64,000 nt of DNA from Neolewinella persica DSM 23188 (lineage in GTDB: Bacteria > Bacteroidota > Bacteroidia > Chitinophagales > Saprospiraceae), in assembly GCF_000373105.1 (NCBI RefSeq), contig NZ_KB890426.1:1-64000 (forward strand). The letters are read 5' to 3'. Shown piece by piece: positions 3,337-63,528 of this stretch. The number at the start of each line of letters is the position of its first letter. Position 1 is the first letter of the stretch. A program made the position numbers and the translations under genes. The notes beneath the pieces are model-generated. The model saw only the letters and a program-made list of their open reading frames with translations. It made no database searches and was not told the origin of the DNA.

Positions 3337-3387
3337 TTTGCACCTGCGGCCGCGCCCAAAACATTAGGGCGCGGCCGCAGGTGCAAA
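3337..3387. terminator. Perfect inverted pair of the 21-bp dispersed motif, hairpin after a stop codon
   Basis: Copy one (3337-3357, core GCACCTGCGGCCGCGCC) and its exact reverse complement (3367-3387) are separated by nine bases, so transcripts from either strand can form a 21-bp stem. The structure begins 25 bases beyond the stop of the leftward gene ending at 3412, a position expected of a terminator or 3'-end stabiliser. It has flanking A/T runs (an A run at 3385-3390) but no long U tract on the leftward transcript. The remainder of the 3012-3411 gap shows no further gene. Confidence 0.7.
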
Positions 3388-3411
3388 AAATCGGAAATGA
3401 GAGAAGGAACC

Positions 3412-6400
3412 CTACTCCCCGGTCCCAATCCCCCGACCAGGCGTCCAGGGCGCCCGAGCCCCATCCAATACCTTATCAATGGCCGGAATATCCTCCGAAA
3501 TGATCCCCCGCAGGGCAGCCATCACCGGACCAAGCTCCTCCTCCGCAACAGCCTTAACCATGACCGAAGTTTTCGTCGGGTCAGAGAGGGAAGACATGCC
3601 CGTATAAATGGCCGTGTTGATGCGGTTGGAGAGGGAAGGCGCCTGGTCCATCTCCAGTTGGCGCTTGATGGGGTCACCGTAGAGTTGGATCCGGATGGCC
3701 TTGAGCTTATCCTCCAGCGCATCGACTTGTTTGTTTAGGGTGGGGCGATCTACCAAACGCAGGGCGGCGCGGTAGTAGGTTAGTCGCTCGTCCAGTTCGT
3801 TGTAGGTGCTGCGTATGGCATTGGACTTTTTGGACAGGTCGGTCAGCTCGCGGTGGTAGGCCAGCATGGCAGCCGGGTCGGTAGCCGGCAGGGTCCGTCG
3901 CTTCAGGTCTTTGACTTTAAAGGAGACGGGGCCAGCTAATTTGGTGATCGCGCCATCAATGCTTTTAGCCAGTTCCACGGTGTAGTCGCCGGGGAGGACC
4001 ATGATGCCGGAAGAGAGGTTACTCGTCGGATCGTCTTTGCCTTTATTGACGTTGTCGATGTCCGGGTACTTCAGGTCCCAGTTAACGCGGTTGATGCCTT
4101 TTTTAGGACTGGACCGGACTTCATCAACGATCTCCCCGTTCGCATCTCGAACGGTGAAAACCATGAAGGCGGCCGCCTGCTCCGCTTCGGCAGACAGCTG
4201 ATCATAAGTGGGATAAAAAACGTCTTCGCCCTCTTTACGCCGCTCTTTTTCGGCTTCTTCCCGGGTTTCCTCCTGAGATTTGTAGCCCTCCTTAAGGAAA
4301 TAGGTGAAGGCCGCGCCGAACTCGGGGTTGTCCCCCAGATAGTAGGTTTCCCCCTGGAAGCCCTTGGGCCCAAGCCAGGAGATCGTATTACTCGCCGCAA
4401 TCGGGCTGTAGGGCAGGTACTGGAAAGCATCCCGGACGCTGAACAGGTGCGCTTCTTCTTCAAGTACTTCCGGCGTCAGCTCGCGCAGGGCGGAATAATC
4501 GTCCATGATGTAAAACCCACGGCCAAAGGTGGCCAGCACCAGGTCGTTCTCCCTTTCCTGGATGTTGATGTCCCGAACCGCTACGGTTGGTAATCCACTA
4601 CTGAGTTTACGCCAGTATTTGCCGCCATCGACGGTGGCGAAGCAGCTGAATTCTGTGCCCACGAACAGCAGATCGGCCACTTTCGGGTCCTCGGCAATGG
4701 CGTAGACGGAGCCAAGCTCGGGTAAGTTAGCGGCAATAGACTTCCACTTGTTACCCTGGTTCGTACTCTTGAGCAGATAGGGTTTAAAATCGCCGTTTTT
4801 ATGGTTGTTAAAGGCGACGTAAACGACGTCCTCGTCGTGGGCGGAAGCGATAATTTCGTTCACGTAGGTCGTATCCGGCACACCCGGAAACTTGTCGTAC
4901 CGGGTCCAGTTCTGGCCACCGTCGGTGGAGACGTGGACGAGCCCGTCGTCCGTGCCGGCATACAGGAGGTTTTCGTTGAGCGGAGATTCTGCCAGGGCCA
5001 CGATGTTGCCATAGGGTGTGGTTGACGCGTTCTTGGCTACCGCATCCATCGGCCAGACCTTACCCATTACCTTGAGTTTATTGCGGTCAATGCCACGGGT
5101 CAGGTCACCACTGGCCTCGCGCCAGCTTTGGCCACGATCGTCCGAGCGGTGCACGCGGTCAGAGGCGTAGTAGACGCGCTTGGGGTCGTGTTGACTCACC
5201 AGTAGGGGAGAGTCCCAGTTCCAGTTGTAGGAGTAGTCTCCCTTGGGGGGCTGGGGGACAATGTTGGTCGTTTCCCCCGTAGCACGGTCGAATCGGCTCA
5301 GGTTACCGTACTGCGATTGGCTGTAGACGATGTTCGGATTAGTAGGGTCTACGTGCGGCTCAAACCCATCGCCCAGGGTCGTAACGAACCAATTGCGGTT
5401 GGTGATGCCAGTCGGCTCGGTGGTTCTGCTCGGACCGCCGAAGCTGAAGTTGTCTTGGGTGCCACCGTAGACGTTGTAGAATGGGTAGTCGTTATCGACG
5501 GCTACCTTATAGAACTGTGCCACCGGCAGGTTCGGGAAGAAGCGCCAGGTTTGACCCCGGTCCCAGGACTCGTAAACGCCACCATCGTTACCATTCAGTA
5601 AGTAATCAGGGTTCTTTGGGTTGATCCACAGCGCGTGGTTATCGATGTGCTTATTTTTCTCACCAACGTTATCGAAGTTCTTTCCGCCGTCGGAACTGAC
5701 GGCCGCGAAGGTGTTCATGATGTAAACGCGATCTACTTCCACCGGATCAGCGATCACCTCCTGGTAGTAGTTTCCGCTGGAGCTGTATTTGCTCCTTTTC
5801 TCCCAGCTTTCACCCCGGTCAGTAGAACGGTAAAATCCCCCCTTATCCTCCTGGGCTTCGACGACGGCGTACACTACGTCCGGGTTGACCGGCGAAACGT
5901 CCAGACCAATCCGCCCAATGTCGCCCCCGGGCATGCCCTTCATGACCTTGCGGAAGTTTTCTCCTCCGTCGGTAGATTTATAGACGGCCGATTCCGGACC
6001 GCCGCTGATGTAGGTAAATACGTGCCGACGGCGTTGGTGGGCCACGGCGTAGACCAAGTCCGGATCACGCGGGTCAAGATGTACCTCGTGGATGCCGGTA
6101 TGGATGCTGATGTCCAGGATCTTCTCCCAGTTTTCACCGCCATCGGTAGTTTTATAGAGGCCACGATCTCCGCCGGCACTCCACAGGGGACCGGTGGCGG
6201 CAACATACACCACATCGCTGTTGCGGGGGTCCACGGCGATCATCCCGATGTGTTCGGAATTTTTCAGGCCCATGTGCTTCCAGCTTTTACCGCCGTCGAC
6301 ACTTTTGTAGACGCCGTCGCCATAAGCCACGCTGCGCTGATTGTTGTTCTCTCCCGTACCCACCCAAACGACGTTGTGGTTATTCGGGTCCATCTCCACC

Positions 6401-7463: not shown

Positions 7464-8897
7464 CTAAAACTTACTATCCACCGGTGGCGGCCCCGCCGGC
7501 ACCATTGGCTTATATTCATAGTCGCCAATGTCTTCCTTGAATTCAGCCTTGATGCTTTCCCGCAGCTTGGCGTCGGTAAACAAGTCGATCATCGTCATTG
7601 CCATTGCCTCGGCGCTGTAGCGCATGCCCTTGTGGCCGATGCTCATACCGCCGCAGGCGACGACAGCCCAGCTATGCCAGGGCGTACCGCTCGGAGCGGT
7701 GGTGGCGCGCAGGCGGATGACGGGCACGACGTAGCTCACGTCACCCACGTCCGTGGAACCACCGGCGGCGACGGAGAGGGTTTCCTCCAGCGGTTCAATC
7801 TTACTTTCAATACCGATCTCTGGCTTGTTGACCGCTGCTTGAATCTGGCGGGCGAAGGCCTGCTCTTCTTCCGTGTAGCTGATCGGGCCCATCGCTTCGA
7901 GGTTGCGTTGCAGTACCTCGGCACCGGTCCGGTTGACGAGCACTTCGTGTATACCGGAAATCAGCGTCAGTTCATAGTCCACATTGGCCATCATGGCCGC
8001 ACCCTCGGCAATGCGTTGAATTTGTTTATACACCACCTGCACGCCTTCGTTGTTGCCGTCGCGTACGCGGGTCCAGATGCGTGAGTAATCGGGTACAACG
8101 TTGACGACTTCACCGGCCTGCTGGATGTCGTAATGGATGCGGACGCTGGGCTTGACGTGCTCGCGGTAGTAGTTGATGCCAGCGGCGTAGAGCTCCAGCG
8201 CGTCGGAGGCATCGCGGCCGTTCCAGGGGTCGGAGGCGGCGTGGGCCGCCTGACCACGGAACTCGACAACAAAGTCGACCAGCGCGAGGCCCGTTTGTAC
8301 GCCCACTTTGGTTTGGGCGGAGGGGTGCCAGTCCATCACCACGTCTACGTCGTCGAAAGCGCCAGCACGGACCATCCATAGCTTCCCGAAGTACTTCTCT
8401 TCGGCGGGCGTGCCGTAGAAACGGATGGTACCTTTTAGTTTCCCCGCTTCGATCATCTCTTTAATTGCAGTGGCAGCTCCTAAACTAGCGGTGCCGAACA
8501 GGTTGTGGCCGCAGCCATGTCCGGCTCCGCCTTCGTTGCGCGGCTGCTTACGGGGAACGGTTTCCTGGCTAAGCCCGGGGAGCGCATCGAACTCCCCGAG
8601 GATGCCGATCACAGGTTTTCCGGAGCCGAATTCGGCGGTAAACGCCGTGGGGATCTCGCCGATGTTTTCCTCAATCCGGAAGCCGTTGGCGCGGGCATAA
8701 GCTTTTAGCGCCTCGGCAGATTGCGCCTCCTGAAAGGCGATTTCTTCGTAAGACCAGATGCGGTCGCTCAGGTCGGTCAACTGCTCGTACTGGGCGGCAA
8801 CGCCGGCGCGTACCTCAGCTTTGAGCTTGCTTTGGGCGCGCACGCAGGTGCAGAGAAAAGTTAATAGTAGCAGGGTAGGAAGGAGGCGGGTAATCAT
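7464..8897 (-). CDS. M20 family amidohydrolase (AbgB-like), exported
   Basis: A metallo-amidohydrolase/peptidase of 477 residues, starting with a signal peptide (MITRLLPTLLLLTFLCTCVRAQ), so it probably acts in the periplasm. Family signatures include 'GILGEFDALPGLSQ' and the metal-site region 'GHGCGHNLFGTASLGAA', followed by 'FYGTPAEEKYFGK' and 'DWHPSAQ'; the dimerisation domain lies in the middle of the protein. These features are typical of the group that includes p-aminobenzoyl-glutamate hydrolase subunit B and other N-acyl amino-acid hydrolases. The natural substrate is unknown. A paralogue of identical length (477 aa) is encoded at 25807-27240, with the same motif order. The gene stands alone. 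Confidence 0.9.
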   Translation of the reverse strand: MITRLLPTLLLLTFLCTCVRAQSKLKAEVRAGVAAQYEQLTDLSDRIWSYEEIAFQEAQSAEALKAYARANGFRIEENIGEIPTAFTAEFGSGKPVIGILGEFDALPGLSQETVPRKQPRNEGGAGHGCGHNLFGTASLGAATAIKEMIEAGKLKGTIRFYGTPAEEKYFGKLWMVRAGAFDDVDVVMDWHPSAQTKVGVQTGLALVDFVVEFRGQAAHAASDPWNGRDASDALELYAAGINYYREHVKPSVRIHYDIQQAGEVVNVVPDYSRIWTRVRDGNNEGVQVVYKQIQRIAEGAAMMANVDYELTLISGIHEVLVNRTGAEVLQRNLEAMGPISYTEEEQAFARQIQAAVNKPEIGIESKIEPLEETLSVAAGGSTDVGDVSYVVPVIRLRATTAPSGTPWHSWAVVACGGMSIGHKGMRYSAEAMAMTMIDLFTDAKLRESIKAEFKEDIGDYEYKPMVPAGPPPVDSKF

Positions 8898-9380
8898 GAA
8901 GCGTTGGTTTGGAGGGAGTAATTTAGGAATTTATCTTCGTAGCGCCAATGAGATTTTAGGGCAAAACGATAACCGGACGAGGCTTGTCGCCCTCAGGGAG
9001 TAGCGGTGGTTGCAGCCGCTGCCCGGGTCTTCAGCAGGCGGCAAAAGCTACCGCTACTGGTCCCCCTTCTTTGCTCCTGCGCCCGCGCCCAGGAAAGCTT
9101 CCCGGTGGATACTATTGACCCCATATTTCCGAAAGGATTGCGGGTGGACAGCGATAATGTTACCGTTCCGGTTTAGGTAGAGCGCATCTTATCAGGTGGA
9201 CGAAGGCACGCAGCCCGTAGCGGTTGGTAACGTAGCCCTTCCGCCTAAGCCACGAAGCAATCGGCTCCGCTTACCCACTGAATAAACCCCGTGCGTAATG
9301 GGAGCGTGGGCAATTACCCTGGCTTTCTGAAAACAAATCAGGCCCTGGCCCGTCTCGTTTTTACAACCATATAAAATAGT
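8898..9380. other. Intergenic region with one degenerate motif copy
   Basis: The gap separates two divergently transcribed genes and so should hold both promoters, but I cannot point to a convincing Bacteroidota promoter (TTTG / TAnnTTTG). The only recognisable sequence is a degenerate copy of the 21-bp dispersed motif at 9070-9090. Confidence 0.5.
9070..9090 (+). repeat. Dispersed 21-bp motif, degenerate copy
   Basis: The core reads GCTCCTGCGCCCGCGCC, differing from the consensus core at two positions. It is intergenic and the same variant occurs inside the kinase gene at 27706-27726. Confidence 0.6.
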
Positions 9381-10975: not shown

Positions 10976-10996
10976 TTTGCACCTGTTTCCGCCTCC
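10976..10996 (+). repeat. Dispersed 21-bp motif, weak copy
   Basis: TTTGCACCTG is conserved, but the second half is degenerate (TTTCCGCCTCC). It lies 30 bases beyond the stop codon of the leftward gene ending at 11026. Confidence 0.35.
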
Positions 10997-12039: not shown

Positions 12040-12482
12040 GAGGGGGAAGGTACGGGATCTATATCGGGCGTTAGCTGGTCGTCGGTTGGGCCTATTGGGC
12101 CTACTTGCAAGGCTGACCTTACACTGCCAACCTACCTTCCCACTGCACCTGCGTCCGCGCCTAATGATGAGCGTCTGCTTTTGCTACTTCCAACCACCGC
12201 GCGATTGGTAATCTCTCCCTACACACCGTCCTTAAAACTAAACCAGGTATACTTCCCTCTATAACTAAAGTTACTATTGTGTTCAAATATATTCCCCGAA
12301 ATTGCATGAAAAGATCGGCGCCTTAAACATTGGTGCCGCCTAATTCACAACACACAACACTGGCCTTCTCCTAAGGGCCACGACAAGGTAACTACGGCCT
12401 GATTTATTATTTCTTCGAGATACATCGAACGTGCTTTTCCGCAAGGATACAAAGCCGTCCAGTATCCTTATTAATCACTGCT
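12040..12482. other. Intergenic region upstream of the peptidase/EAD11 cluster
   Basis: The gap lies between divergent genes and should contain the promoter of the 12.5-20.2 kb cluster. One motif copy lies at 12143-12162. From about 12200 to 12480 the sequence becomes visibly richer in A/T, which suits a regulatory region, but I cannot assign promoter boxes with confidence. Confidence 0.5.
12143..12162 (+). repeat. Dispersed 21-bp motif copy
   Basis: The core reads GCACCTGCGTCCGCGCC, one mismatch from consensus. The same T variant recurs at 21626, 39646, 47954 and 55868. Confidence 0.65.
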
Positions 12483-13712: not shown

Positions 13713-13717
13713 GTGGG

Positions 13718-21414: not shown

Positions 21415-21733
21415 ATTTTGAGGTTGATCGGGTGTAATATGGGAGAAAGGGCGAAGTCAGTATAGTTGGGAGCTTGCTCAGAACCATAAGAACGATTTGG
21501 ACCGATCACTAATTTTAAAGGTGTTTATTAAATACAATTGCAGCTGCTAATTTTCTTCTTCAGCGGGGCGTTGTTGCAACAGACCAGGAGTAGGCTTTTT
21601 AAGCAAAAGCTCACCTTGGCCCAACCCTGCACCCGCGTCCGCGCCTCCTTGTACTACTTCGAGTACCCGTAAACAAATACCAGCAAGAGTTGGTGACCCC
21701 ATATTTTAGCTTAATTCTTACACCCGCCCATAC
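21415..21733. other. Intergenic region with one motif copy
   Basis: This is the spacer between divergent genes. A copy of the 21-bp motif lies at 21626-21646 (core GCACCCGCGTCCGCGCC). No promoter or other gene was recognised. Confidence 0.5.
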
Positions 21734-23037: not shown

Positions 23038-23135
23038 GGGCGGGGCCGCTGGTGCAGGGGGAGATTTTGATAAGCAGGGGGGGGGAGCCCCGTTCCTTGC
23101 GCTTGACAAACTTCTTTGCACCTGCGGCTCCGCCT
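23038..23135. repeat. Inverted pair of degenerate 21-bp motifs between convergent genes
   Basis: A reverse copy at 23038-23056 and a forward copy at 23115-23135 (core GCACCTGCGGCTCCGCC) lie in the 117-base gap between the converging stops at 23029 and 23147. The pair could fold into a long-looped hairpin and act as a bidirectional terminator. Confidence 0.55.
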
Positions 23136-27447: not shown

Positions 27448-28476
27448 ATGCCCGACCACAACCCCATACGCCCCGGCGAAGAACTGGATTGGCCCCGCCT
27501 GGAAACCTACCTGCGCGAAGAATTGCCGAAATTGGAGGGGGAGATGACCGTTTCACAGTTCCACGGTGGCCACGCCAACCTTACTTACCTGATTAAATTC
27601 GGTGAAGAGGAACTGGTCTTGCGCCGTCCGCCTTTCGGCAAAATTGCCCCCGGCGCCCACGATATGCGGCGGGAATACCGGGTCCTGCACGGCCTTTCAC
27701 CCTCCTTTGCTCCTGCGCCCGCGCCTCATTTGCTTTGTACGGACGACACCATCATCGGAAGTGATTTCATCGTCATGCAACGCCGGGAAGGCATCGTGAT
27801 CCGCAATAAAATGCCGGATTGTTTTGCCGACATACCGGATGCGGCTACCCGCCTCTCCGCTGCGCTGATGAAGGTTTGCGCCGATCTTCACCTGGTCGAT
27901 GTCGACGCCGCCGGCCTGCAGGAACTCGGCAAACCCGCCGGCTTCGCCGAACGCCAGCTGCGCGGCTGGACTAAGCGCTGGAACCTGGCCAAACTGGAAG
28001 AAAATGCCGACATGGACGCCCTGATGGATGCCTTGAATGTAGATGTGCCAGTTCCGCAGCGCGTCAGTATCGTCCACGGCGACCTCAAATTTGACAACTG
28101 CCAGTTTCAGCCCGATAACCCGGACCTGGTTACCTCGGTCTTCGACTGGGACATGGCTACGCTGGGCGATCCACTCTTCGACCTGGCGGGGCTACTGACC
28201 TACTGGCCGGAAAAAAATCCGGCAGATGTCCCCTTCCCTTTCCTGATCGGGGACTGGCCAGACAAAGCCTGGCTGAAAGAGCAATACGCTACCTACTCCG
28301 GCCTTGATTTAAGCAGAATGGATTGGTACGAAGCCTTTGCCTGCTACAAATCCGCCGTCATCGTTCAACAACTCTACGCCCGCTACGTAGCCGGTGCCAC
28401 CAAAGATAAACGGATGGCAAAATTCGGTGAAGTTGCTAAAGCCTTTGCCCGCCTGGGCCTTAAAAAACTCCGCTAA
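27448..28476 (+). CDS. Phosphotransferase (APH-like, ACAD10/11-associated kinase)
   Basis: A 342-residue aminoglycoside-phosphotransferase-fold kinase. It has 'QFHGGHANLTYLIKFGEEE' (nucleotide loop), 'LVLRRPPFG' (catalytic Lys region replaced by Arg-type motif), 'VSIVHGDLKFDNCQF' (H-G-D-x-K-x-x-N catalytic loop) and 'VFDWDMATLGDPLFDLAGLL' (metal-binding D-W-D). Three bases separate it from an acyl-CoA dehydrogenase gene, exactly the pair that is fused in vertebrate ACAD10/11. There, the kinase phosphorylates 4-hydroxyacyl-CoA so that the dehydrogenase partner can process it. The same role is inferred here. A copy of the 21-bp motif is read in frame at residues 87-93 as FAPAPAP without disturbing the family pattern. 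Confidence 0.88.
   Translation: MPDHNPIRPGEELDWPRLETYLREELPKLEGEMTVSQFHGGHANLTYLIKFGEEELVLRRPPFGKIAPGAHDMRREYRVLHGLSPSFAPAPAPHLLCTDDTIIGSDFIVMQRREGIVIRNKMPDCFADIPDAATRLSAALMKVCADLHLVDVDAAGLQELGKPAGFAERQLRGWTKRWNLAKLEENADMDALMDALNVDVPVPQRVSIVHGDLKFDNCQFQPDNPDLVTSVFDWDMATLGDPLFDLAGLLTYWPEKNPADVPFPFLIGDWPDKAWLKEQYATYSGLDLSRMDWYEAFACYKSAVIVQQLYARYVAGATKDKRMAKFGEVAKAFARLGLKKLR
27706..27726 (+). repeat. Dispersed 21-bp motif inside the APH-like kinase gene
   Basis: The copy (core GCTCCTGCGCCCGCGCC) is translated as F-A-P-A-P-A-P. The peptide stands where APH-type kinases usually have a 'vPvPkp'-like turn before the cysteine/aspartate block, so the copy replaces rather than interrupts coding sequence. 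Confidence 0.7.
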
Positions 28477-29679: not shown

Positions 29680-29682
29680 AAA

Positions 29683-29881
29683 CCCCCTCCCAACCCTCCC
29701 CACGGGGGAGGACTCACTAAAACGCTGCGCGTTTTTAATCGTGGCGCCAGATTTACAATTACATTATTACACGAGGCCAAACCTGTTTTAATTAGCTAAC
29801 CAATGCTTGAGCATTAATTACCACATAAACGCGTAGCGTTTTCAAAAACTCCCTCCCCCGTGGGGAGGGTTGGGGAGGGGG
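29683..29881. repeat. 199-bp palindromic element with about 50-bp inverted arms (MITE-like)
   Basis: The left arm (29683-29735) and right arm (29828-29881) are close inverted copies, with outer ends CCCCCTCCCAACCCTCCCC and its reverse complement, then inner AACGCTGCGCGTTTT / ACGCGTAGCGTTTT segments. The core of about 90 bases is A/T-rich and has no ORF. It fills the gap between the acyl-CoA dehydrogenase and the symporter gene and could act as a terminator for the former. It is most likely a non-autonomous mobile palindrome. Confidence 0.8.
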
Positions 29882-29928
29882 AGCTACCAACAGATTATCA
29901 GGCATCAAATACAAATTAAGCGCATACC

Positions 29929-31209: not shown

Positions 31210-31623
31210 TAGAATGGCTGCGGAGATATTTTAATATTCAATAGTGGCGGGGTCGCAGGTACAGGGTAAGTTGGAAGAGCAGTGGACGACCTGGACGAAG
31301 CTACCTCCGGTAACGCCGGCCTCTTGCCGCGTGGCGTTATACTGTGGGCCGTTGAGCGGGCGGTACTCGCCATCAAGCCGTTCGGTACCTTAACGCCGCG
31401 CTGCCGGAGGCAACCGCTTCCGCTCGGGCGCGGAGCGCCTTTCGTCCGGCCCCGGCATTGCTTCTAGTCCGTACCTTGCACCTGCGACCGCGCCAAATAT
31501 GCCACTCAGTGAGTCACTCAACGATTCTCCAACTCAACAACTCACTTCTGGTGAGCAAGCACAGCACCACGATCGGCTAATGCGGTAGCCCCTTCACCCC
31601 TTCATTCATTCACACACTCACTA
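31210..31623. other. Intergenic region with an inverted pair of motif copies
   Basis: A reverse copy (31246-31263) and a forward copy (31475-31494, core GCACCTGCGACCGCGCC) of the dispersed motif face each other around about 210 G/C-rich bases. The inner part contains partial self-complementarity but no supported gene. The last 100 bases are a low-complexity CTCACTCA-rich leader before the acetyltransferase gene. Confidence 0.55.
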
Positions 31624-37781: not shown

Positions 37782-37844
37782 AGTTGCAGGTTACAAGTTG
37801 CAGGTTGCAGGTTACAAGTTACAAGTTGTAAGTTGCAAGTTGTA
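37782..37844. repeat. Nine tandem 7-bp units (heptad repeat block)
   Basis: Variants of AGTTGCA, GGTTACA and AGTTGTA repeat nine times with period seven, between the SusD stop and a terminator. A similar period-seven block lies at 52656-52750. Confidence 0.8.
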
Positions 37845-37934: not shown

Positions 37935-40900
37935 ATGCCAGCAATTATCCGAAATTTTATCCTGGTCCTTGGCTTGCTTTGCCTGCTCCAATGTTCCGAC
38001 ACTGCACCTGCGGCCGCGCCCGAAAATGCGGACGAAACGCTGTTTACTTTACTGTCTGCCACGGCAACGGGCATCAATTTTGAGAATCGGCTCACGGAGG
38101 GACCGAATACGAATATTCTGGTCTACGAATATTTCTATAATGGAGGAGGCGTTGCTGCCGGCGATTTGAATGGGGATGGGAAAACGGACCTGTATTTTAC
38201 CGCGAATATGGCCGAGAATAAGCTGTACCTCAACGATGGAGCCCTGAAATTTAGCGATGCAACAGCGGCTAGTAACGCTGGTGGCAGGCCTGGGCCATGG
38301 AAAACGGGCGTAACGGTGGCCGACGTCAACGCCGACGGGAAACTGGATATTTATCTGTGTTATTCTGGCGCACTGCCCGCCGAGAAAAGGGCCAACCAAT
38401 TACTGATCAATCAGGGAAATGATGCCAATGGTGTCCCTCTGTTCAAAGACGAAGCATCCGCTTACGGACTAGCCAGTACTGCTTTCAGTAACCAAATGTA
38501 CTTCTTTGACTACGACCAGGACGGAGATCTGGACGGGCTATTGCTTAACCACAATCCGAAATCGTTGCCGGTACTGAACGTGGCCAAAACGAAGGAGATG
38601 TTGCAACAAGCTGACCCGCAACGCGGGCTGACGCTGTATAGAAACGACGGTGGAAAATTCAAGGATGTGACGACGGCGGCAGGCATCAGCGGATCGGCAC
38701 TGAGCTATGGCCTGGGCTTGGCCATTTCCGATCTGGACCGGGATGGAGATCCTGATTTTTACGTCTCCAACGACTACGAAGTACCCGATTTTCTGTACTA
38801 TAATAACGGTGACGGAACCTTCACGGACCGACTAGGGAACCAGATGGGGCATACCAGTCATTTCTCGATGGGCAACGACATTGGAGACATCAATAACGAT
38901 GGCCATCCGGATATTTTTACGCTCGATATGCTCCCGGCGGATAACCGTCGGCAGAAACTACTGATGCCCGACGATAATCGTTCCAAACTGGACCTTAATC
39001 TGGAGAGTGGCTTCCATCACCAGACGATGCGGAACATGCTTCAGCTTAACCAGGGCAACGGCTCCTTTGCGGAGATTGGCCGGCTGGCGGGCGTTGCGAT
39101 GACGGACTGGAGTTGGTCGGCTTTATTTGCCGATTTTGATAACGATGGCTGGCAGGACCTGCACGTGACGAACGGCTACCTGAAGGACTATACCAATATG
39201 GACTTTATCAGTTTCATGGAGGATTACGTGGCGAAAAAAGGGCGGTTGCAACGGGCTGATTTACGGGGTATTTTGGAAGAAATGCCCGCTTCCGACGTCA
39301 ATAACTATGCTTTCGGAAACCAGGGAGATAAGACTTTTGCGGACCAGACTAAGGCCTGGGGCTTAGCCCGGCCGTCGAACAGCAACGGGGCGGTGTACGC
39401 TGACCTGGATGATGATGGCGACCTTGATTTGGTGGTGAATAATGTGGATCAGCAGGCTTTTGTGTATCGAAATAATAGCCAGGATCAGCATTATTTATCG
39501 GTAGTACTGGAAGGAGGGAAAGGGAATACTTTTGGGGTAGGAACCAGGGTCGAGGTAACGGCAGAGAACGTGACCCAATCCCGGGAGATGTACTCAAACC
39601 GTGGCTATCTGTCCAGTGTCGATCCCGTGCTGCATTTCGGTTTGGGCGCGCGGACGCAGGTGCAAAGGGTGGTGGTCACCTGGCCGGATGGCAGCGTACA
39701 AACCCTGGAGGATATTGCGGTGGATCAAAGGCTGGTCTTCCGCCAGGATGCAGCAAGCAAAGGGGGAATGGATAAAGAAATAAAGGAAGGGACAGCCTTT
39801 GTTGAAGTCACCTCACCGTTGCCTTACGTCGATCAACTTTCTGGAAAACGGGACTTTGATGCGGAACCGCTTTTACTGCGGGAATATTCCCACTTCGGCC
39901 CGGCGATCACCGATGAAGGCCAGTTGGTTGCGCGGAATAACAAGGTACTCGCTTATACTTCTGGTGAGCCCATTGTTTCGTTTCTTGGCAATAGTTACGT
40001 TGAAGGTAAATATCCGCAAGCAGACGATGTGACCATTAGGATAGACGGAGGAACACCCTTAAAACTTCCAAATAATTTGGAAAACGTCAGTAAAATCAAC
40101 GCTGCTATATGGTCTGACTTGAATAGGGATGGTAACAAAGAACTGATTATTGCCGGAGAATGGACCCCGCTGCTGGTTTATTCTTTGGATGGTGAATCCC
40201 TGGTAGATGTGACCAAAACATACTTCTCCACGGACCATCACGGCTGGTGGACTGCTCTCCACCTTTCCGACCTCAACGGAGACGGCCAACCAGATATCGT
40301 CGCCGGCAACCAGGGCCTCAATAACCTTTTCACCGCCAGCAAAGAACGACCGGTAGAACTCCACGCCGCTGATCTGGACGACAACGGCAGCATCGATCCC
40401 GTCCTAAGCTACTACGCCCCCGACGGGAAGCGATACCCCGACGCCACTAAGGACGAACTCCTCAAGCAGCTGGCCGGACTCAAACGACGCTACGTCTCTT
40501 ATGCCAGCTATGCTGACCAGACCCTGGAGGAGGTATTTCCCGAATGGCCACAGGAAACCATTCACCTTACTGCTGATCGTCTGGAAACAACCCTCTACCT
40601 CAGCCAGCCGGACGGAACCTACCTCGCCTCACCTTTGCCGCTGGAAGCACAGTACGCGCCGGTCCATACCATCACGGAACTGGATTATAACTCGGATGGC
40701 CACGCCGACCTGCTGCTCTGTGGAAATGACAATATGGAGAAACAACGCTGGGGAAAGTCTGATGCGAATTCCGGCGTTCTGTTGCAAGGAGATGGAAAAG
40801 GCGGATTTGTCTACGTGCCACAGACTAAATCTGGTTTCAATTTGCGGGGAGACGTAAGAAATGTGGTGATGGTGGAGGATCTTCTTTTATTTGGGATCCG

Positions 40901-40949
40901 GGGTGGCAAGGCCGTGACGTATAAACAACAACGGACAAATTTGAAATGA
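37935..40949 (+). CDS. ASPIC/UnbV (CRTAC1-like) FG-GAP repeat lipoprotein
   Basis: A 1004-residue lipoprotein (IRNFILVLGLLCLLQCS, Cys about residue 20). It contains many VCBS/FG-GAP calcium-binding blades: 'GVAAGDLNGDGKTDLYFTAN', 'VADVNADGKLDIYLCYSG', 'AISDLDRDGDPDFYVSNDYE' and similar. An ASPIC/UnbV domain follows near residue 560 ('FGLGARTQVQRVVVTWPDG'), and further blades continue to the C-terminus. The usual role of such proteins is extracellular ligand or glycan binding, and they commonly accompany SusCD loci, as here. The transcript is separated from susD by a strong terminator, so it has its own promoter. Two copies of the 21-bp motif are embedded in frame. Confidence 0.9.
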   Translation: MPAIIRNFILVLGLLCLLQCSDTAPAAAPENADETLFTLLSATATGINFENRLTEGPNTNILVYEYFYNGGGVAAGDLNGDGKTDLYFTANMAENKLYLNDGALKFSDATAASNAGGRPGPWKTGVTVADVNADGKLDIYLCYSGALPAEKRANQLLINQGNDANGVPLFKDEASAYGLASTAFSNQMYFFDYDQDGDLDGLLLNHNPKSLPVLNVAKTKEMLQQADPQRGLTLYRNDGGKFKDVTTAAGISGSALSYGLGLAISDLDRDGDPDFYVSNDYEVPDFLYYNNGDGTFTDRLGNQMGHTSHFSMGNDIGDINNDGHPDIFTLDMLPADNRRQKLLMPDDNRSKLDLNLESGFHHQTMRNMLQLNQGNGSFAEIGRLAGVAMTDWSWSALFADFDNDGWQDLHVTNGYLKDYTNMDFISFMEDYVAKKGRLQRADLRGILEEMPASDVNNYAFGNQGDKTFADQTKAWGLARPSNSNGAVYADLDDDGDLDLVVNNVDQQAFVYRNNSQDQHYLSVVLEGGKGNTFGVGTRVEVTAENVTQSREMYSNRGYLSSVDPVLHFGLGARTQVQRVVVTWPDGSVQTLEDIAVDQRLVFRQDAASKGGMDKEIKEGTAFVEVTSPLPYVDQLSGKRDFDAEPLLLREYSHFGPAITDEGQLVARNNKVLAYTSGEPIVSFLGNSYVEGKYPQADDVTIRIDGGTPLKLPNNLENVSKINAAIWSDLNRDGNKELIIAGEWTPLLVYSLDGESLVDVTKTYFSTDHHGWWTALHLSDLNGDGQPDIVAGNQGLNNLFTASKERPVELHAADLDDNGSIDPVLSYYAPDGKRYPDATKDELLKQLAGLKRRYVSYASYADQTLEEVFPEWPQETIHLTADRLETTLYLSQPDGTYLASPLPLEAQYAPVHTITELDYNSDGHADLLLCGNDNMEKQRWGKSDANSGVLLQGDGKGGFVYVPQTKSGFNLRGDVRNVVMVEDLLLFGIRGGKAVTYKQQRTNLK
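38002..38021 (+). repeat. Dispersed 21-bp motif inside the ASPIC lipoprotein gene (5' part)
   Basis: A perfect consensus core. It is read as A-P-A-A-A-P in the linker just behind the lipobox cysteine, a tolerant, disordered site. Confidence 0.8.
39646..39666 (-). repeat. Dispersed 21-bp motif inside the ASPIC domain
   Basis: The reverse-oriented copy (core variant with CGTCCG) is read as A-R-T-Q-V-Q within FGLGARTQVQRVVV. The equivalent loop of the paralogue at 46356 (FGLGEETVADSVLV) has the same length, so the motif arose by substitution, not insertion. Confidence 0.7.
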
Positions 40950-41137: not shown

Positions 41138-42460
41138 ATGGTTCGTGGGACTACGATGCTATTCCTTTTATTGGGTATGTTTAGCTGTGGCCCCAGTAGC
41201 ACTTATACTGACGCCGAAATCGCTACCGCCTGGGCTGATCTGACCTTAGATCTCACGAAAGGGACCCCTGGCAACAGCCCCACCTACGCCTCCCGCTGCC
41301 TGGGCTACATTGGTTTGACAATGTACGAGTCGGTTGCCCCCGCGTATCCGGAGAAGCGCAGCCTGGCGGGCCAACTCAGCATGTTGGCCCGGCTTCCGGA
41401 ACCTGATGAAGGGAAAGAATATAACTACCCGCTGGCCATGAGTACGGGCCAGGCGGAGATACTCCGAAGTTTGTACAACCATACTTCCGACGCCAACAAA
41501 ACCAGGATCGATTCCCTGGAAAAAGCGATGGATAACTATCTGCGGGAGACTATGGCTACTGATGTCGCTGATCGGTCCGTTTCCTTCGGCAAGCGGATGG
41601 CCAGGGCCATTTTTGAGTGGTCCAAAAGCGATGGCGGGCATCGGGCTTACCTGCGTAATTTCGAGAAAGGAATTGTCCATCCCGACGTACCGGGCAGCTG
41701 GAAGCCACCCTTGTTTGCGCAGTCGTTCAGTCACCATCCGTTGCATCCGTACTGGGGGCAGAACCGGCCGTTTCTGCCGGCGAATTATAGGATGGAAGCA
41801 CCTGAATACATTACCTACGATACGCTGCCAGGGTCGCCGTACTACGAGCAATTTCTGAAAGTGTACGAGGCAGATCTGGCGCTGACGCAGGAGCAAAAAG
41901 AGATTGCCCTATGGTGGGGAGATGACCCGGACGACACCTTCACTCCGCCGGGACATTCCTACTACATCGCCACCCAGGTTTTAACCGCAAGGGACGCCGA
42001 CCTGATCACCCGCGCGGAGACCTACGCCCGCGTTGGAATTGCCGTGGCGGACGCCTTCATCAATTGCTGGAAGTGGAAGTACCAGTTCTTTAGTGAGCGG
42101 CCTAATACCTACATCCCCGCCGTTATCGATGAGGAATGGGAATCTTTTTGGCCGGATCCGCCGTTTCCGGCCTTTCCGTCGGGGCACGCCATCCAGGCGG
42201 CTGCCGCCGCCACAGTACTGGAAGGCCTCCACGGCCCCGACTTCGTGTTTACCGACCGCAGCCACCTCGGCCGCCCCTACGACGAAGAACGGGAAACGGG
42301 CTGGCAAGAACGCCCATTCACCAAGTTCTGGGATGTTGCGCTGGAGACGGCCGATTCCCGCTTCTATGGCGGCATTCATACGCCGCAGGACAATGATCGG
42401 GGACTGGAGAAAGGAAAGGAAGTGGGGGAGAATGTTAATGGGTTGAGTTGGGATAAGTAA
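41138..42460 (+). CDS. Vanadium-haloperoxidase/PAP2-like lipoprotein
   Basis: A 440-residue protein with a lipobox (MVRGTTMLFLLLGMFSC), starting at the ATG at 41138. An upstream open frame to 40946 passes through a hairpin and is rejected. It has the phosphatase/haloperoxidase core: 'RPNTYIPAVIDEEWESFW' (motif Arg), 'FPAFPSGHAIQAAAAATVL' (S-G-H motif) and 'ADSRFYGGIHTPQDNDRGLE' (R-x-x-x-G-x-H), so the vanadate/phosphate pocket residues are present. Whether it is a haloperoxidase or a phosphatase cannot be told by eye. It follows an ASPIC/UnbV gene, a common pairing in Bacteroidota. It should be attached to the periplasmic or outer face. Confidence 0.85.
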   Translation: MVRGTTMLFLLLGMFSCGPSSTYTDAEIATAWADLTLDLTKGTPGNSPTYASRCLGYIGLTMYESVAPAYPEKRSLAGQLSMLARLPEPDEGKEYNYPLAMSTGQAEILRSLYNHTSDANKTRIDSLEKAMDNYLRETMATDVADRSVSFGKRMARAIFEWSKSDGGHRAYLRNFEKGIVHPDVPGSWKPPLFAQSFSHHPLHPYWGQNRPFLPANYRMEAPEYITYDTLPGSPYYEQFLKVYEADLALTQEQKEIALWWGDDPDDTFTPPGHSYYIATQVLTARDADLITRAETYARVGIAVADAFINCWKWKYQFFSERPNTYIPAVIDEEWESFWPDPPFPAFPSGHAIQAAAAATVLEGLHGPDFVFTDRSHLGRPYDEERETGWQERPFTKFWDVALETADSRFYGGIHTPQDNDRGLEKGKEVGENVNGLSWDK

Positions 42461-42677: not shown

Positions 42678-42698
42678 CTTGCACCTGCGGCCGCGCCC
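42678..42698 (+). repeat. Dispersed 21-bp motif, full-core copy
   Basis: It is perfect over the core, with one mismatch at the 5' end (CTTG). It lies eight bases beyond the stop of the leftward C25-like gene ending at 42706, i.e. again at a 3' gene end. Confidence 0.8.
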
Positions 42699-46355: not shown

Positions 46356-48056
46356 ATGGTTGCGTACGCTCCTCCTTATTGTTTTTTAGTAATGATGGCT
46401 TGGTTGGGATTTTCCAGTATTGCCCCAGCCCAAACCCAATTCACCGACGTCACCGACTCCGCTGGCATCAACCACGAGTTCGTCGTGCTGGAAGGTATGT
46501 TTGGCGGCGGTGCCTGTGTGATTGATTTCAATCAGGATGGCTTTGAGGATATCTATGTTACTGGCGGGACGGTCGATGACCAGTTGCTGCGCAACAATGG
46601 GGACGGTACGATGACCAATGTTTATGAAGGTTCGGGAATGGAGTTTACCCGCCACTTCGTTACCCAGGGTGTAGCGGGTGCAGACGTGAATCGGGACGGT
46701 TACGTAGACCTCTTCGTTACCACCATCACTTCCCGGGACAGCGCCCGAACGATCCCCCGTGCCCGTAATCTGCTGTTTCTCGGGCAGGCTGGTGGCACTT
46801 TCCGGGAAGTAACGGATACATTTGGCCTTACCCCCCTGTATTCTTTCAGCACCGGCGGAAGCTTCGGTGATTTCAACGGCGATGGCTGGCCGGACCTGTT
46901 CGTCGGCAACTACTTCATTGAATATGAGGGCAAGCTCAATGTCATCAGCGATGCCACCATCGTTGGGGCCAACCAGACGGCCAGAGATTATCTGTTGTTG
47001 AACGACGGTGGAAAAGGCTTCGTCAACGTCTACGACGAATATGGCATGGACCACCGGGGCTTTGGCTTTGGTGGCGTGTTTACCGATTTTGACAATGACG
47101 GGGACCAGGACCTTATCGTGAACAACGACTTTGGTTATAAGGCCGTCCCCAGTTTAGTGTATGAAAATCAGTACCCCAAGAAGAGATTTGTTGACGTTAG
47201 TGAAGACCTGGAGCTTGATTTACGGATCAATGCTATGGGGTCTGCCGGAGGAGATTACAACCAGGATGGGATGCTGGATTACTACATGACCAACATTCGT
47301 TTTAATCGGTTCATGGTCAGCCAGGGAGTGGGCAAACCGTTTAAGAATAGGACCAAAGAGGTAGGGATGAATTTTGTCGCCATCAGTTGGGGGGCGAATT
47401 GGGCGGATTACGATCACGACGGCGACCTCGACCTGTTTGTCAGTAACGGCGACCTGAATCCGAACTGCGTACCGATGGCCAATTACTACTACGATAACGT
47501 TGGCGATGGCTTCAACGAGATTGGAAAGCAAAATGGCACGGGAGATTACGGTATTGGCCGGGGATCGGTGCTTTTTGACCTGGAAAACGACGGTGACCTG
47601 GATATATTTATAGTCTGCCAGCGGCCGGTTTTGCCCAACTTTCCGGTCTCTTCGAAGACCAAGTTATTGCGCAACGATGCTGCCCCCGGCAACTGGCTGA
47701 AGGTGGCGTTGAAGGGTAAGGAGGCAGAAAGTCAGGGGCTGGGTAGCCGGGTGACGGTGTTCAGCAAGGGGCGGCAAATGATCCGGGAAATTGATGGCGG
47801 CGGTAGTAGCCACCTATCGCAAAACTCCGTCATCGCGCACTTTGGCCTCGGCGAGGAAACCGTTGCGGATTCGGTGCTTGTTTCCTGGACGGGTGGCGAA
47901 CAGCAGTTGCTGACGGGCGTGGCGGCAAATCAACTCCTGGTGGTGGAAGAGGCGGCGCGGACGCAGGGTGCAGGGTTGGTTAAGTGGGGGCTGGGGGTAG
48001 TAAGCTTACTTGCGGTCTGCGGCGTGATTTTTGCCCTGCTGCGGAAGAAAAATTAA
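46356..48056 (+). CDS. ASPIC/UnbV (CRTAC1-like) protein with C-terminal membrane anchor
   Basis: A 566-residue exported protein with a signal peptide (about 1-25). FG-GAP/VCBS blades recur ('VIDFNQDGFEDIYVTGG', 'GVAGADVNRDGYVDLFVTTI', 'GSFGDFNGDGWPDLFVGNYF', 'ANWADYDHDGDLDLFVSNGD'), each with D-x-D-x-D-G calcium loops. An ASPIC/UnbV domain follows ('HFGLGEETVADSVLVSWTG', about residues 490-530), and a C-terminal hydrophobic helix ('LGVVSLLAVCGVIFALLRKKN') suggests membrane anchoring, unlike the lipoprotein paralogue at 37935. The ligand is unknown. The gene is flanked by three palindromic repeats and carries one 21-bp motif copy in its 3' part. Confidence 0.88.
   Translation: MVAYAPPYCFLVMMAWLGFSSIAPAQTQFTDVTDSAGINHEFVVLEGMFGGGACVIDFNQDGFEDIYVTGGTVDDQLLRNNGDGTMTNVYEGSGMEFTRHFVTQGVAGADVNRDGYVDLFVTTITSRDSARTIPRARNLLFLGQAGGTFREVTDTFGLTPLYSFSTGGSFGDFNGDGWPDLFVGNYFIEYEGKLNVISDATIVGANQTARDYLLLNDGGKGFVNVYDEYGMDHRGFGFGGVFTDFDNDGDQDLIVNNDFGYKAVPSLVYENQYPKKRFVDVSEDLELDLRINAMGSAGGDYNQDGMLDYYMTNIRFNRFMVSQGVGKPFKNRTKEVGMNFVAISWGANWADYDHDGDLDLFVSNGDLNPNCVPMANYYYDNVGDGFNEIGKQNGTGDYGIGRGSVLFDLENDGDLDIFIVCQRPVLPNFPVSSKTKLLRNDAAPGNWLKVALKGKEAESQGLGSRVTVFSKGRQMIREIDGGGSSHLSQNSVIAHFGLGEETVADSVLVSWTGGEQQLLTGVAANQLLVVEEAARTQGAGLVKWGLGVVSLLAVCGVIFALLRKKN
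47954..47973 (-). repeat. Dispersed 21-bp motif in the 3' part of the ASPIC gene
   Basis: A degenerate reverse copy (GCGGACGCAGGGTGCA) is read as A-R-T-Q-G-A between the ASPIC domain and the C-terminal membrane helix. Confidence 0.5.
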
Positions 48057-48751: not shown

Positions 48752-48772
48752 CTTGCACCTGCGGTCCCGCCT
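48752..48772 (+). repeat. Dispersed 21-bp motif copy
   Basis: A degenerate copy (core GCACCTGCGGTCCCGCC) between the SRPBCC and DUF3124 genes. It creates an artefactual upstream in-frame start for the latter. Confidence 0.6.
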
Positions 48773-53701: not shown

Positions 53702-53722
53702 GGGCGCGGCCGCAGGTGCAAA
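53702..53722 (-). repeat. Dispersed 21-bp motif, perfect copy
   Basis: A perfect reverse copy beyond the stop of the leftward gene ending at 53792. Confidence 0.8.
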
Positions 53723-54515: not shown

Positions 54516-56108
54516 TCACGACCGTACCACCACCATCCCCTGTTCCAGCGGATCCAGCGCCTCAATCAGCGCGGGGAACATAGCTTCCCCTTCTTCCAGG
54601 TAAACGTTCAGAAAGTTGTCCTTCCGCTCCTGAAGGCTATTACCGGGAAAGAGTTTGGCGCGTAGTGCCCGGATGGTGTCCATTGCTTCCTGATACTTCT
54701 TCTTTTCGATCCGCCGGAGGCGGGACTCGAACTGGGCAATGATTTTCGTTTGGCGGGTGCCTTCAGCCAGGGCTGCTTTTTCCAGGGTAGGGTCGATGGC
54801 CTTGGCCTTGGCGGCCAGGGAGGCGAAGAGGCCGTTGAGTTGTTCCCATTCGGCTTCCAGGGAGAGGTCGTTGGGGCTTTCTCGCGCTACGTAGTCGCGG
54901 ATGATCAGATCGTCATGGCGGAAGAGCTGACGAAAATCCAGCTGTATTTTATCCAGCTGATGTTGGCTTTTTTGATCTACCCAAACGACGGAGTTCCGCC
55001 GGATGAGCATGGGGAAGTTCAAGCCAAAGGCCGCAAACTGTTCCTTCCGCTCCAGCCAGTAAGCCAGTTCTCCGCCACCGCCGATGTAGGCGAGGTTGGG
55101 AAAGATCAATTCCTGGAACAGCGGCCGCATCACCACATTGGGGCTGAAGCGTTCGGGGTGTTCCTGAAGTTCCAGTCGGAATTCGGCTTCGGTCCAGAGG
55201 TTCGTAGTGTCGAGGGCGCCGTAGTTGCCGTCCTCAAAGACGATCCGGTCCCGGCGCCCGGGGCTTAGGTAGAACAGGTTGATGTCGCGGGCATGTGCCT
55301 GGCCGGAGTACCCGGCTGCGGTCAGTTCCGCCTGTGCTTTTTCGATCAGGGGCTGGCTGACCTGTTCAAAGATTTCCCGCTCCATCATTGGCCGGAAAGC
55401 GGCCTTGAAGGCCGGTCGGCTGGGGTTGGAAATCACCAACTCAGTGTCCTTGAAGAGGTCGTGGACAAAGTGTAGCGTGGCTTCACCATAAGTACGATCG
55501 CCGGAGTATGCTTTCTCAATCCGGTCGTAAATGCCGAAAGGGGTGAATTCGCCTCCGAGCAGTCCTTTCAGCGCGGTAAGCGCAGGTTTCAGGTCGTCGA
55601 TGGACATGGCTCCGACGGAGCCCCCGGGATGTTGCTTGTTCCACTCCACCTTTTTTCCCTTTATCCGGGCGTGGTTGATCTCCTCAAAGTCATGGTCCTC
55701 TCCACCGATGATGAAAACCGGGACAACGTGCTGATCGGGATACTGCTCATTGAGTTTCCTGGCCAGGTTGATCGTGGAACAGATCTTGTAAATGAAGTAT
55801 AACGGACCAGTAAAAAGCGAGGGCTGGTGGGCGGTGATGACCGTCCAGGTATTGCCGTTCAACAAACTTTGCACCTGCGTCCGCGCCGTATCTGCCTGAT
55901 CCAGCCCTGTGTATTGTGCCAGTAATTCGTCCACCAGAAGTTGCCGGTTTGTCTTATCGTTGGCCTTGTCCTTCATGACCTCGGCAAACGCCTGGAGCGT
56001 AACCGGATACTTGAAAAAAGGCTTTAGGTCGGCAGCACCGGTGGCGTAGGCCACGTCGCGCTGCGAAAACTGAGGAACTTCGGGAAAAGGGATCCGATCG
56101 ATTTGCAT
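54516..56108 (-). CDS. bshC: Bacillithiol biosynthesis cysteine-adding enzyme
   Basis: A 530-residue enzyme that adds cysteine to glucosaminyl malate, the last step of bacillithiol synthesis. Bacillithiol replaces glutathione as the main low-molecular thiol in many Bacteroidota. BshC-specific blocks include 'VITAHQPSLFTGPLYFIYKI', 'QHVVPVFIIGGEDHDFEEIN' and 'GGGGELAYWLERKEQFAAFG', with a C-terminal helical part. The start is the ATG at 56108. bshA and bshB are not in the window. A 21-bp motif copy is read in frame (TARTQVQ) at residues 74-80 in a helical linker. It is cytosolic. Confidence 0.93.
   Translation of the reverse strand: MQIDRIPFPEVPQFSQRDVAYATGAADLKPFFKYPVTLQAFAEVMKDKANDKTNRQLLVDELLAQYTGLDQADTARTQVQSLLNGNTWTVITAHQPSLFTGPLYFIYKICSTINLARKLNEQYPDQHVVPVFIIGGEDHDFEEINHARIKGKKVEWNKQHPGGSVGAMSIDDLKPALTALKGLLGGEFTPFGIYDRIEKAYSGDRTYGEATLHFVHDLFKDTELVISNPSRPAFKAAFRPMMEREIFEQVSQPLIEKAQAELTAAGYSGQAHARDINLFYLSPGRRDRIVFEDGNYGALDTTNLWTEAEFRLELQEHPERFSPNVVMRPLFQELIFPNLAYIGGGGELAYWLERKEQFAAFGLNFPMLIRRNSVVWVDQKSQHQLDKIQLDFRQLFRHDDLIIRDYVARESPNDLSLEAEWEQLNGLFASLAAKAKAIDPTLEKAALAEGTRQTKIIAQFESRLRRIEKKKYQEAMDTIRALRAKLFPGNSLQERKDNFLNVYLEEGEAMFPALIEALDPLEQGMVVVRS
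55868..55887 (+). repeat. Dispersed 21-bp motif inside bshC
   Basis: The core carries the GCGTCCGC variant. In the leftward reading of bshC it encodes A-R-T-Q-V-Q, as in the ASPIC gene at 39646. The segment precedes the conserved 'TVITAHQP' block. Confidence 0.75.
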
Positions 56109-56671: not shown

Positions 56672-58589
<1,918 letters not shown>

Positions 58590-58670
58590 GGGCGCAGCAG
58601 TAAAATGAATACATATGGGTTCCGACTTCATAGCAATCATATGGTTTTAAATCTTAATCACAGGGCTTAG

Positions 58671-62702: not shown

Positions 62703-62747
62703 TGAACCAGAGGTAGTGGGAGACAGACTACTCATTGACTGATAAAA

Positions 62748-63482
62748 CTATTCCTCCGGCGCCAGCGGCGGGATAACCTCCAGCAAAGTCTCCAAGTCCC
62801 ACATATCCTTCTCCTCGAACGGCCCAACGGTCGTCCGTCGCAGCGCGGTGAGGTAGCCGCCCGAATCCAGCGCCTTGCCCATATCATAAGCCAGCGACCG
62901 GATGTAGGTGCCTTTAGAACAGGTTATTTCAAAGTCCACTTCCGGCAGTTCAATACGGGTGATCCTGAATTCGTGTACTGTGACGGGGCGGGGTTTTACT
63001 TCCACCTGGATGCCTTTTCGGGCTTTTTTGTACAAAGGCTGGCCGTCGATTTTGATGGCAGAGTAGATGGGAGGGAGCTGCTGTAGATCACCAGTGAGAG
63101 AGCGGGCAGCGGCGCGGACCATCTCATCGGTAATGTGCTCCGTGGGGAAGGTGGCGTTGATCGGCTCTTCGGCGTCATAGCTGGCGGTGGTGGCACCTAG
63201 GGTGATGGTGCCGGTGTAGGTTTTGTCCATACCCTGCAGCTCCTGCAGGCGTTTGGTCCACTTGCCGGTGCAGATGTTGAGCATGCCGGTGGCCATGGGG
63301 TCCAGTGTGCCAGCGTGGCCTACCTTGATTTTCTTTACCCCCAGGTGCTTGCGAATGGCCCAGCGGACCTTATTAACGACGTCGAAACTGGTCCAGCCCT
63401 TCGGTTTATCGACGAGTAGCAGGCAGCCTTCCTGGAAGGTAAAGGGTGGGGTAGTGGTAGGGGGAAGCGTTTTGATAAGCAA
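62748..63482 (-). CDS. truB: tRNA pseudouridine-55 synthase
   Basis: A cytosolic RNA-modifying enzyme that converts U55 in the T-loop of tRNAs to pseudouridine. 'LLVDKPKGWTSFDVVNKVRW' and the catalytic-Asp motif in 'KVGHAGTLDPMATGMLNICT' are complete, as is 'VDFEITCSKGTYIRSLAYDM'. I chose the TTG at 63482 because it gives about 244 residues, normal for the short Bacteroidota form. ATGs at 63578 and 63623 would add 32 and 47 residues of non-family sequence that includes the 21-bp motif (63508-63528) read in an otherwise unused frame (LHLRPRP). The start remains uncertain. Confidence 0.9.
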   Translation of the reverse strand: MLIKTLPPTTTPPFTFQEGCLLLVDKPKGWTSFDVVNKVRWAIRKHLGVKKIKVGHAGTLDPMATGMLNICTGKWTKRLQELQGMDKTYTGTITLGATTASYDAEEPINATFPTEHITDEMVRAAARSLTGDLQQLPPIYSAIKIDGQPLYKKARKGIQVEVKPRPVTVHEFRITRIELPEVDFEITCSKGTYIRSLAYDMGKALDSGGYLTALRRTTVGPFEEKDMWDLETLLEVIPPLAPEE

Positions 63483-63507
63483 TAAGGGATTTGTGATTAG
63501 CGATTTT

Positions 63508-63528
63508 GGGCGCGGCCGCAGGTGCAAA
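63508..63528 (-). repeat. Dispersed 21-bp motif upstream of truB
   Basis: A perfect reverse copy 26 bases upstream of the favoured truB start, in the 5' leader. If the upstream ATG were used it would be translated in frame as LHLRPRP, a reading not seen in any certain gene of the window. Confidence 0.8.

Follow-up and report, generated by a model that had tools for sequence, protein, structure and literature searches.

A dispersed, polar motif with strand-specific spacing in Neolewinella, a candidate self-DNA recognition signal of the uptake-sequence type

The window analysed here, the first 64,000 nucleotides of contig NZ_KB890426.1 of Neolewinella persica DSM 23188, contains scattered copies of a motif which recurs throughout that genome and, in several dialects, in other members of the genus. 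Copies in the same orientation keep apart from one another by about 3 kb, and those in opposite orientations are placed nearly independently, so that the orientations alternate along the DNA. On balance, the pattern in the genome sequences argues for a dispersed, polar signal of self-DNA recognition, similar in type to the DNA uptake sequences (DUS) of Neisseriaceae and the uptake signal sequences (USS) of Pasteurellaceae.

The genome of the window (G000) is a draft of 7.08 Mb in 84 contigs, and all genome counts given here were made on draft assemblies. It contains 655 exact copies of the G-type motif, GCACCTGCGNCCGCGCC (350 on the forward strand, 305 on the reverse), whereas the reversed pattern does not occur; another 345 exact copies are of the C-type, GCACCTGCGNCCCCGCC. 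A sample of 884 kb of G000, made up of the window, stretches picked by position and one stretch around comEC, was scanned with GCACCTGCGNCCNCGCC, which gave 126, 88 and 19 matches at 0, 1 and 2 mismatches, compared to 0, 2 and 20 for the reversed pattern. As the two-mismatch class is matched by its control, approximately 20 of these 233 copies may be due to chance. With at most one mismatch there are 214 matches against 2, which extrapolates to about 1,700 per genome, or one per 4 kb. The count by which the preliminary description of the motif proposed to check it came out far above the control, for exact matches genome-wide and for near matches in the sample, and the strong over-representation on both strands is one found in DUS and USS.

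Downstream of the 17-bp core, GCACCTGCGNCCGCGCC, comes a short A-rich tail and upstream of it a pyrimidine tract, and the core consensus has no hairpin symmetry across its length. An upstream box, CMYTGCTYYTT, lies about 21 nt ahead of the core. A TGC in surroundings of that form begins between -23 and -17 in 182 of 245 copies, and a TGC anywhere from -32 to -14 is present in 80% of 244 copies, compared to 23% in a control stretch. The box was also found in genomes G005, G014 and G002.

The spacing of the copies was determined for each strand. Same-strand pairs closer than 2 kb number 11 in G000, where 46 are expected. In a class-matched control, in which copies were re-placed within coding or intergenic DNA according to their own class, 68.5 same-strand pairs below 3 kb are expected and 21 are observed. 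Opposite-strand pairs at 1-3 kb are as frequent as expected under the same control (23 against 27.1 and 26 against 27.0), and only the +- pairs at 300-1000 bp fall somewhat short, at 4 where 9.8 are expected. Since copies of the same orientation keep clear of one another over about 3 kb, and those of opposite orientation are mostly free to approach, orientations alternate, as they do in 133 of 191 neighbouring pairs. Counts per 20 kb are under-dispersed on each strand, with variance/mean ratios of 0.33 and 0.45 (null 1.0), and those of the two strands are uncorrelated (-0.01). Over a contiguous 160 kb the coefficients of variation of the same-strand gaps are 0.65 and 0.45, and a few same-strand clusters occur. 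Not one of 719 control 7-mers of similar abundance matches the motif on alternation, on same-strand avoidance or on evenness.

The same arrangement was observed in other species, from samples of 100-220 kb each, some of 8-20 kb. Sixteen other members of the genus, with 150 copies, give a single same-strand pair below 2 kb, where 22.5 are expected, and alternation in 93 of 116 cases. In other dialects alternation is seen in 8 of 8 cases (G001), 15 of 17 (G006) and, for the motif of G010, 23 of 29; the latter forms 5 same-strand pairs below 3 kb, with 12.3 expected. A bias of orientation relative to origin and terminus, suggested as a check, is not apparent: with local GC skew in the sampled stretches as a proxy for the replication strand, 90 copies run with the skew and 89 against it. 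Relatively even spacing and a lack of replication-strand bias are also features of DUS and USS, and according to Karlin, reportedly, USS of each orientation are evenly spaced.

Exact words were counted in the 20 other members of the genus and in 79 genomes of other genera of the family and order. The G-type is present in 19 of the 20, with 2 to 956 copies, and in none of the 79. A generalized pattern, which covers the G-type and CT-type and not the C-, A- or G010 types, was applied to 150 genomes of the family. The three genus members included gave 741, 531 and 52 matches (1, 0 and 4 for the reversed pattern), and in the other 147 it matched 32 times, in 18 genomes, and its reversed form 23 times, ie near the control level. 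Four other genera, sampled at 50-100 kb each and searched de novo for words, showed nothing like the motifs of G010 or G014, though a motif as sparse as that of G001 could escape such a search. The motif was found in one genus alone, and the idea that it is common to Saprospiria was not upheld.

Within the genus the leading form changes. The C-type leads in G011 (352 copies against 66 of the G-type), G017 (134 against 17) and G008 (133 against 56), and the A-type in G013 (545 against 38). Samples of G001 and G006 contain CCTGCGCTCCGSCGCC-like copies, and G012, G016 and G020 are mixed; CCTGCG is common to most dialects of the genus. On a tree of BshC, a single gene in 19 genomes with some weak deeper forks, sister pairs have the same dialect (G001/G006, G008/G011, G004/G017, G002/G009 and G014/G007). 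Dialects held in common by close relatives are also characteristic of DUS and USS. BshC of the window is 76% identical to that of Neolewinella aurantiaca, and the motif layout at the N. aurantiaca locus L041 is that of G014, a genome of the same genus, on which basis the genus was taken as Neolewinella.

G010 has two G-type copies and none of the C- or A-type. Its own motif, CMYTGCTACTTTGNYAGYCAAAA, is largely different, and the word TGCTACTTTGNNAGYC occurs there in 714 exact copies, with none in the other 20 members of the genus and at most one in each of the 79 other genomes. In the form TGCTACTTTG (G010 loci L206-L209 and L174) it opens with a CMYTGCT frame, which is that of the upstream box in the window's species. 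As this module is common to the 5' half of the G010 motif and the upstream box, the two signals may be related through it.

A viral collection contains the 18-mer TGCACCTGCGGCCGCGCC in 16 stretches; contigs L214, L215, L216, L218 and L219 carry it twice each, in the same orientation and about 3,585 bases apart. This observation bears neither way on a phage origin.

Gene context was examined with genes called by a simple custom script rather than a standard annotator. Predicted genes contain 90 of the 233 copies and the other 143 lie between genes, in DNA of which 82% is coding. Copies inside genes show no preferred strand (43 on that of the gene, 47 opposite), and in gaps between tandem genes 36 run along the gene direction and 35 against it. 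Convergent gaps hold 16 copies and divergent gaps 48, in line with the lengths of those gaps, and 8 lie at the ends of stretches. The copies are enriched between genes. The suggested role of inverted pairs as terminators is not supported: of the 26 pairs closer than 300 bp, 19 are outward-facing at distances of 60-260 bp, and the motif has no preference for convergent gaps. Antisense coding copies fall in the three frames 24, 23 and 0 times, and the empty frame would read Arg-Gly-Arg-Arg-Cys.

The origin of copies within genes was followed in 575 pairwise comparisons of orthologues at 55 coding copies; these are not independent, many being at the same sites. The motif is retained at up to three mismatches in 269 and is missing from 306. 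Of the latter, 211 are ungapped in the motif, and 151 have no gap within five residues either. Since presence and absence occur at orthologous codons without gaps, the alignments point to gain and loss of coding copies by substitution, rather than insertion, in many cases. In 196 retained pairs with ungapped flanks, identity is 0.88 in the motif, a value inflated by selecting pairs which retain it, and 0.56 in the flanking nucleotides, which suggests that coding copies can outlast divergence of the surrounding protein. In bshC the motif occupies one and the same set of antisense codons (ARTQVQ and variants) in 10 of 20 members of the genus, the window's included. Several others have a looser form on the sense strand adjoining it (QHLRSR-like), which may be due in part to constraint on the protein. 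Origin by substitution, seen here in the coding orthologues, tolerance within genes and a higher density between them are also found in DUS and USS.

The window itself was scanned with GCACCTGCGGCCGCGCC, at up to three mismatches. There are 20 matches, in both orientations, compared to a mean of 0.27 and a maximum of 2 in 100 dinucleotide shuffles. The match at 57130 (3 mismatches) sits in the glpK frame and was excluded from the count. About 19 dispersed copies had been listed, and 17 of those 19 positions were recovered with an offset of 0-3 bases; the other two have weak forms, at 10976 (GCACCTGTTTCCGCC..) and 47954 (GCACCCTGCGTCCGCGCC, with one inserted base). Two credible copies within genes, 8835 (2 mismatches) and 41878 (3 mismatches), were absent from the list. 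Six of 19 window copies lie inside five predicted genes, in agreement with the earlier statement that five genes contain copies. The copies below were located by the scan, with orthologues for those at 27709, 38004 and 39647 and gene calls for the others placed in or between genes; that at 47954 comes from inspection of the sequence.

3340..3356, + strand: exact copy; inward-facing pair with the copy at 3368
3368..3384, - strand: exact copy
8835..8851, - strand: 2 mismatches; in predicted amidohydrolase gene 7464-8897(-); outward pair with 9073
9073..9089, + strand: 2 mismatches; intergenic; outward pair with 8835
12145..12161, + strand: T at the free position; intergenic
21629..21645, + strand: 2 mismatches; intergenic
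23039..23055, - strand: C-type with one further change; outward pair with 23118
23118..23134, + strand: 2 mismatches; outward pair with 23039
27709..27725, + strand: 2 mismatches; in gene 27448-28476(+)
31246..31262, - strand: 3 mismatches, C-type; outward pair with 31478
31478..31494, + strand: A at the free position; intergenic; outward pair with 31246
38004..38020, + strand: exact copy; in gene 37935-40949(+); retained in G018 and G007, where the flanks differ
39647..39663, - strand: 2 mismatches; in gene 37935-40949(+); part retained in G007 (DNA alignment)
41878..41894, - strand: 3 mismatches; in predicted gene 41177-42460(+)
42681..42697, + strand: exact copy; intergenic
47954..47971, - strand: possible degenerate copy with one inserted base; in gene 46395-48056(+)
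48755..48771, + strand: 2 mismatches, C-type-like; clear CTGCTACTTT box upstream
53703..53719, - strand: exact copy; intergenic
55871..55887, + strand: T at the free position; in bshC, 54516-56108(-), antisense to codons ARTQVQ
63509..63525, - strand: exact copy

At the site of the 27709 copy a form of the motif is present in G018, and G003, G007 and G014 have other codons over an equal length.

Other repeats were observed beside the motif. An element of about 200 bp at 29680-29885 has inverted G+C-rich ends (CCCTCCCC hairpins) and resembles a miniature inverted-repeat transposable element (MITE) or a bacterial interspersed mosaic element (BIME); its ends match many sites in G003 and G014, and it is distinct from the motif. 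The gap preceding gene 37935 contains a short-period repeat (GTTACAAGTTGCAG-like, 37783-37842) with matches at many sites in G003 and at some in its own genome. A second repeat word, CAACCCCTGCAACC, was found in 10 of 42 sampled stretches of G000 (eg L026, L022 and L027), with 37 matches at up to one mismatch.

The arrangement could be explained if the element is read by a cognate protein while DNA is being imported or recombined, with motif-bearing alleles favoured, so that copies would accumulate by molecular drive. Copies of one orientation appear redundant within about 3 kb, and those of opposite orientation do not, which makes a directional or strand-specific mode of reading probable, as with a motor, or an import of single strands, that would start at the motif or respond to it from one side. 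We infer this polar step from the strand-specific exclusion. Uptake across the outer membrane and cytoplasmic, Chi-like processing of incoming DNA both fit, and cannot be told apart. A fuller proposal can be put forward tentatively, though it is somewhat less likely than not to be right: that Neolewinella possesses a pilus-independent system of self-DNA acquisition or recombination which reads the signal with strand polarity, that this polarity wrote the alternating, even pattern, and that the dialects were rewritten, on one occasion to a largely different signal, under an unchanged rule of arrangement.

Published work on uptake-type signals, in the portions available to us, concerns Neisseriaceae and Pasteurellaceae (PMC3630211, PMC1939737, PMC7811141). 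DUS dialects are reported there to follow phylogeny, with a small core, CTG, in common (PMC3630211). USS are described as a core with less conserved flanks, located in and between genes (PMC1939737, PMC7811141), and as significantly even in spacing (PMC1939737), a relatively even distribution being an expected outcome of uptake-biased molecular drive (PMC7811141). Among Bacteroidota, Riemerella is reported to be naturally competent and to require genes annotated as ComEC, DprA, ComF and RecA and four of unknown function; no pilus gene is named among them in the abstract of that report (PMC8459023). Open-licence literature on Saprospir- names, or on Bacteroidota and transformation, yielded no report of an uptake sequence, and that on Lewinella repeats or intergenic DNA and on Neolewinella nothing on such a motif, as judged by titles or the start of abstracts. 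A prokaryotic motif-discovery paper makes no mention of Bacteroidetes, Saprospira or Haliscomenobacter in its main text.

The check for competence and pilus genes gave a divided answer. ComEC is present in 21 of 21 genomes of the genus and DprA in 20 of 21, and these lend weak support to a self-DNA signal since both genes are common. Several observations weigh against it. A convincing ATPase of a pilus or type II secretion system (T2SS; PilB/GspE-type) was not found in the 21 genomes: the PF00437 model was covered over at most 84 of 370 positions, and 11 genomes were barely above the cut-off of 24.9 bits (up to 25.5), in frames of approximately 940-1,070 amino acids. This search, made for the ATPase, gave no convincing sign of the type IV pilus machinery which, with a receptor pilin, is characteristic of DUS and USS. 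For Bacteroidetes such as Cytophaga, an unusual T2SS has been described (PMC6668835). Uptake which is blind to orientation predicts a loss of close opposite-strand pairs as well, and pairs at 1-3 kb are at expectation. There are exceptions to the spacing, eg three plus copies in 1.4 kb on contig C1. Outward (-+) pairs below 300 bp are more frequent than expected: G000 has 19, against 7.4 under the class-matched control, and the 16 species have 14, against 2.4 under a uniform control. These pairs, 60-260 bp apart, include 23039-23134, 31246-31494 and 8835-9089 in the window and others at sampled loci; the excess is seen in G-type species, and in G010 close pairs of both kinds occur, 3 and 3 with 0.8 expected of each. 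Lastly, 95 of the 306 motif-less comparisons have a gap in the motif and 60 more have one within five residues.

Of the other explanations, a Chi-like site comes nearest, though we consider it unlikely. A helicase-nuclease entering at broken or foreign DNA ends would read the motif one way and switch from degradation to recombination; within its range, further sites facing the same way would add nothing, and those of the two directions would not affect each other, which accounts directly for the strand-specific even spacing and the near-independence of the strands. Known Chi sites are short (5-8 bp), widely shared and biased to the leading strand, whereas the motif here has a 17-bp core and a box at a distance of 21 nt, varies among related species and shows no leading-strand bias on GC skew. 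A site for chromosome organisation or segregation, bound by a resident nucleoid or motor protein, would fit the regular spacing and genome-wide spread. It is rather improbable, as orientation is unrelated to skew and turnover to the largely different motif of G010 is hard to square with at least 1,000 architectural sites.

A regulator-binding, promoter or terminator element is most doubtful: 143 of the 233 sampled copies do lie between genes, but the motif is not oriented to genes, convergent and divergent gaps show no excess, and there are copies deep within genes. This reading was rejected on the gene context and the lack of an Rfam match in the window. Least likely of all is a family of repetitive extragenic palindromic (REP)/BIME or MITE type, spread by a REP-associated tyrosine transposase (RAYT) or other transposase. 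The copies are dispersed and enriched between genes, Y1_Tnp genes are present in 20 of 21 genomes, and the 95 gapped comparisons could be read as insertions. Against this stand the 211 ungapped comparisons, a core which does not have the form of a palindromic insertion unit, a strand-specific exclusion which transposition does not predict, and G018, which has 572 exact copies and no Y1_Tnp match (in an assembly of 880 pieces). For the coding copies a REP/RAYT origin was rejected on the Y1_Tnp counts and orthologous codons, and the finding which the preliminary description would have taken as fatal, a RAYT-borne mobile element, did not emerge for them.

If the self-DNA signal proposed here is correct, it would be an uptake-type signal new for Bacteroidota, of independent origin and apparently without the pilus machinery used elsewhere. 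The strand-specific spacing would let the polarity of import or recombination, and its tract length, be read from the map of a genome, and the dialects, with one largely different signal in a single genus, would be a natural experiment leading toward the receptor.

The preliminary description had likened the motif to uptake signals or to HIP1. The first is the best fit, considering the dialects, gain by substitution, enrichment between genes with copies also in coding DNA, even spacing and lack of strand bias, although strand-specific spacing is unlike uptake which ignores orientation. HIP1 of cyanobacteria is a short palindrome and a very frequent dispersed word, also in coding DNA; it is similar in the latter respects and is a poor model because the Neolewinella motif is long, polar and composite, with an upstream box. 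Compared to Chi, acting with RecBCD or AddAB, polar action would account for the strand-specific redundancy, but the motif is longer, forms dialects and has no skew-related orientation. DUS are 10-12 bp long and bound by ComP. They resemble the motif in occurring in thousands of copies and in having, as far as described, dialects around a small core, CTG there and CCTGCG in most dialects here; they differ from its 17-bp core and distant box, its strand-specific exclusion, the lack of a convincing pilus ATPase and the largely different signal of G010. The flanks of USS are AT-rich, and that of the Neolewinella motif is pyrimidine-rich with TGCT. USS, from the descriptions available, are alike in their core with less conserved flanks, their relatively even spread and their presence in and between genes, but are spaced at about 1 kb (PMC7811141) rather than about 4 kb. 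Some close USS pairs form a class with overlap within 14 bp, whereas close pairs in Neolewinella are mostly outward and 60-260 bp apart. Uptake in H. influenzae is reported to be independent of USS orientation (PMC1939737), in contrast to the polar action which the strand-specific exclusion in the genomes suggests for Neolewinella.

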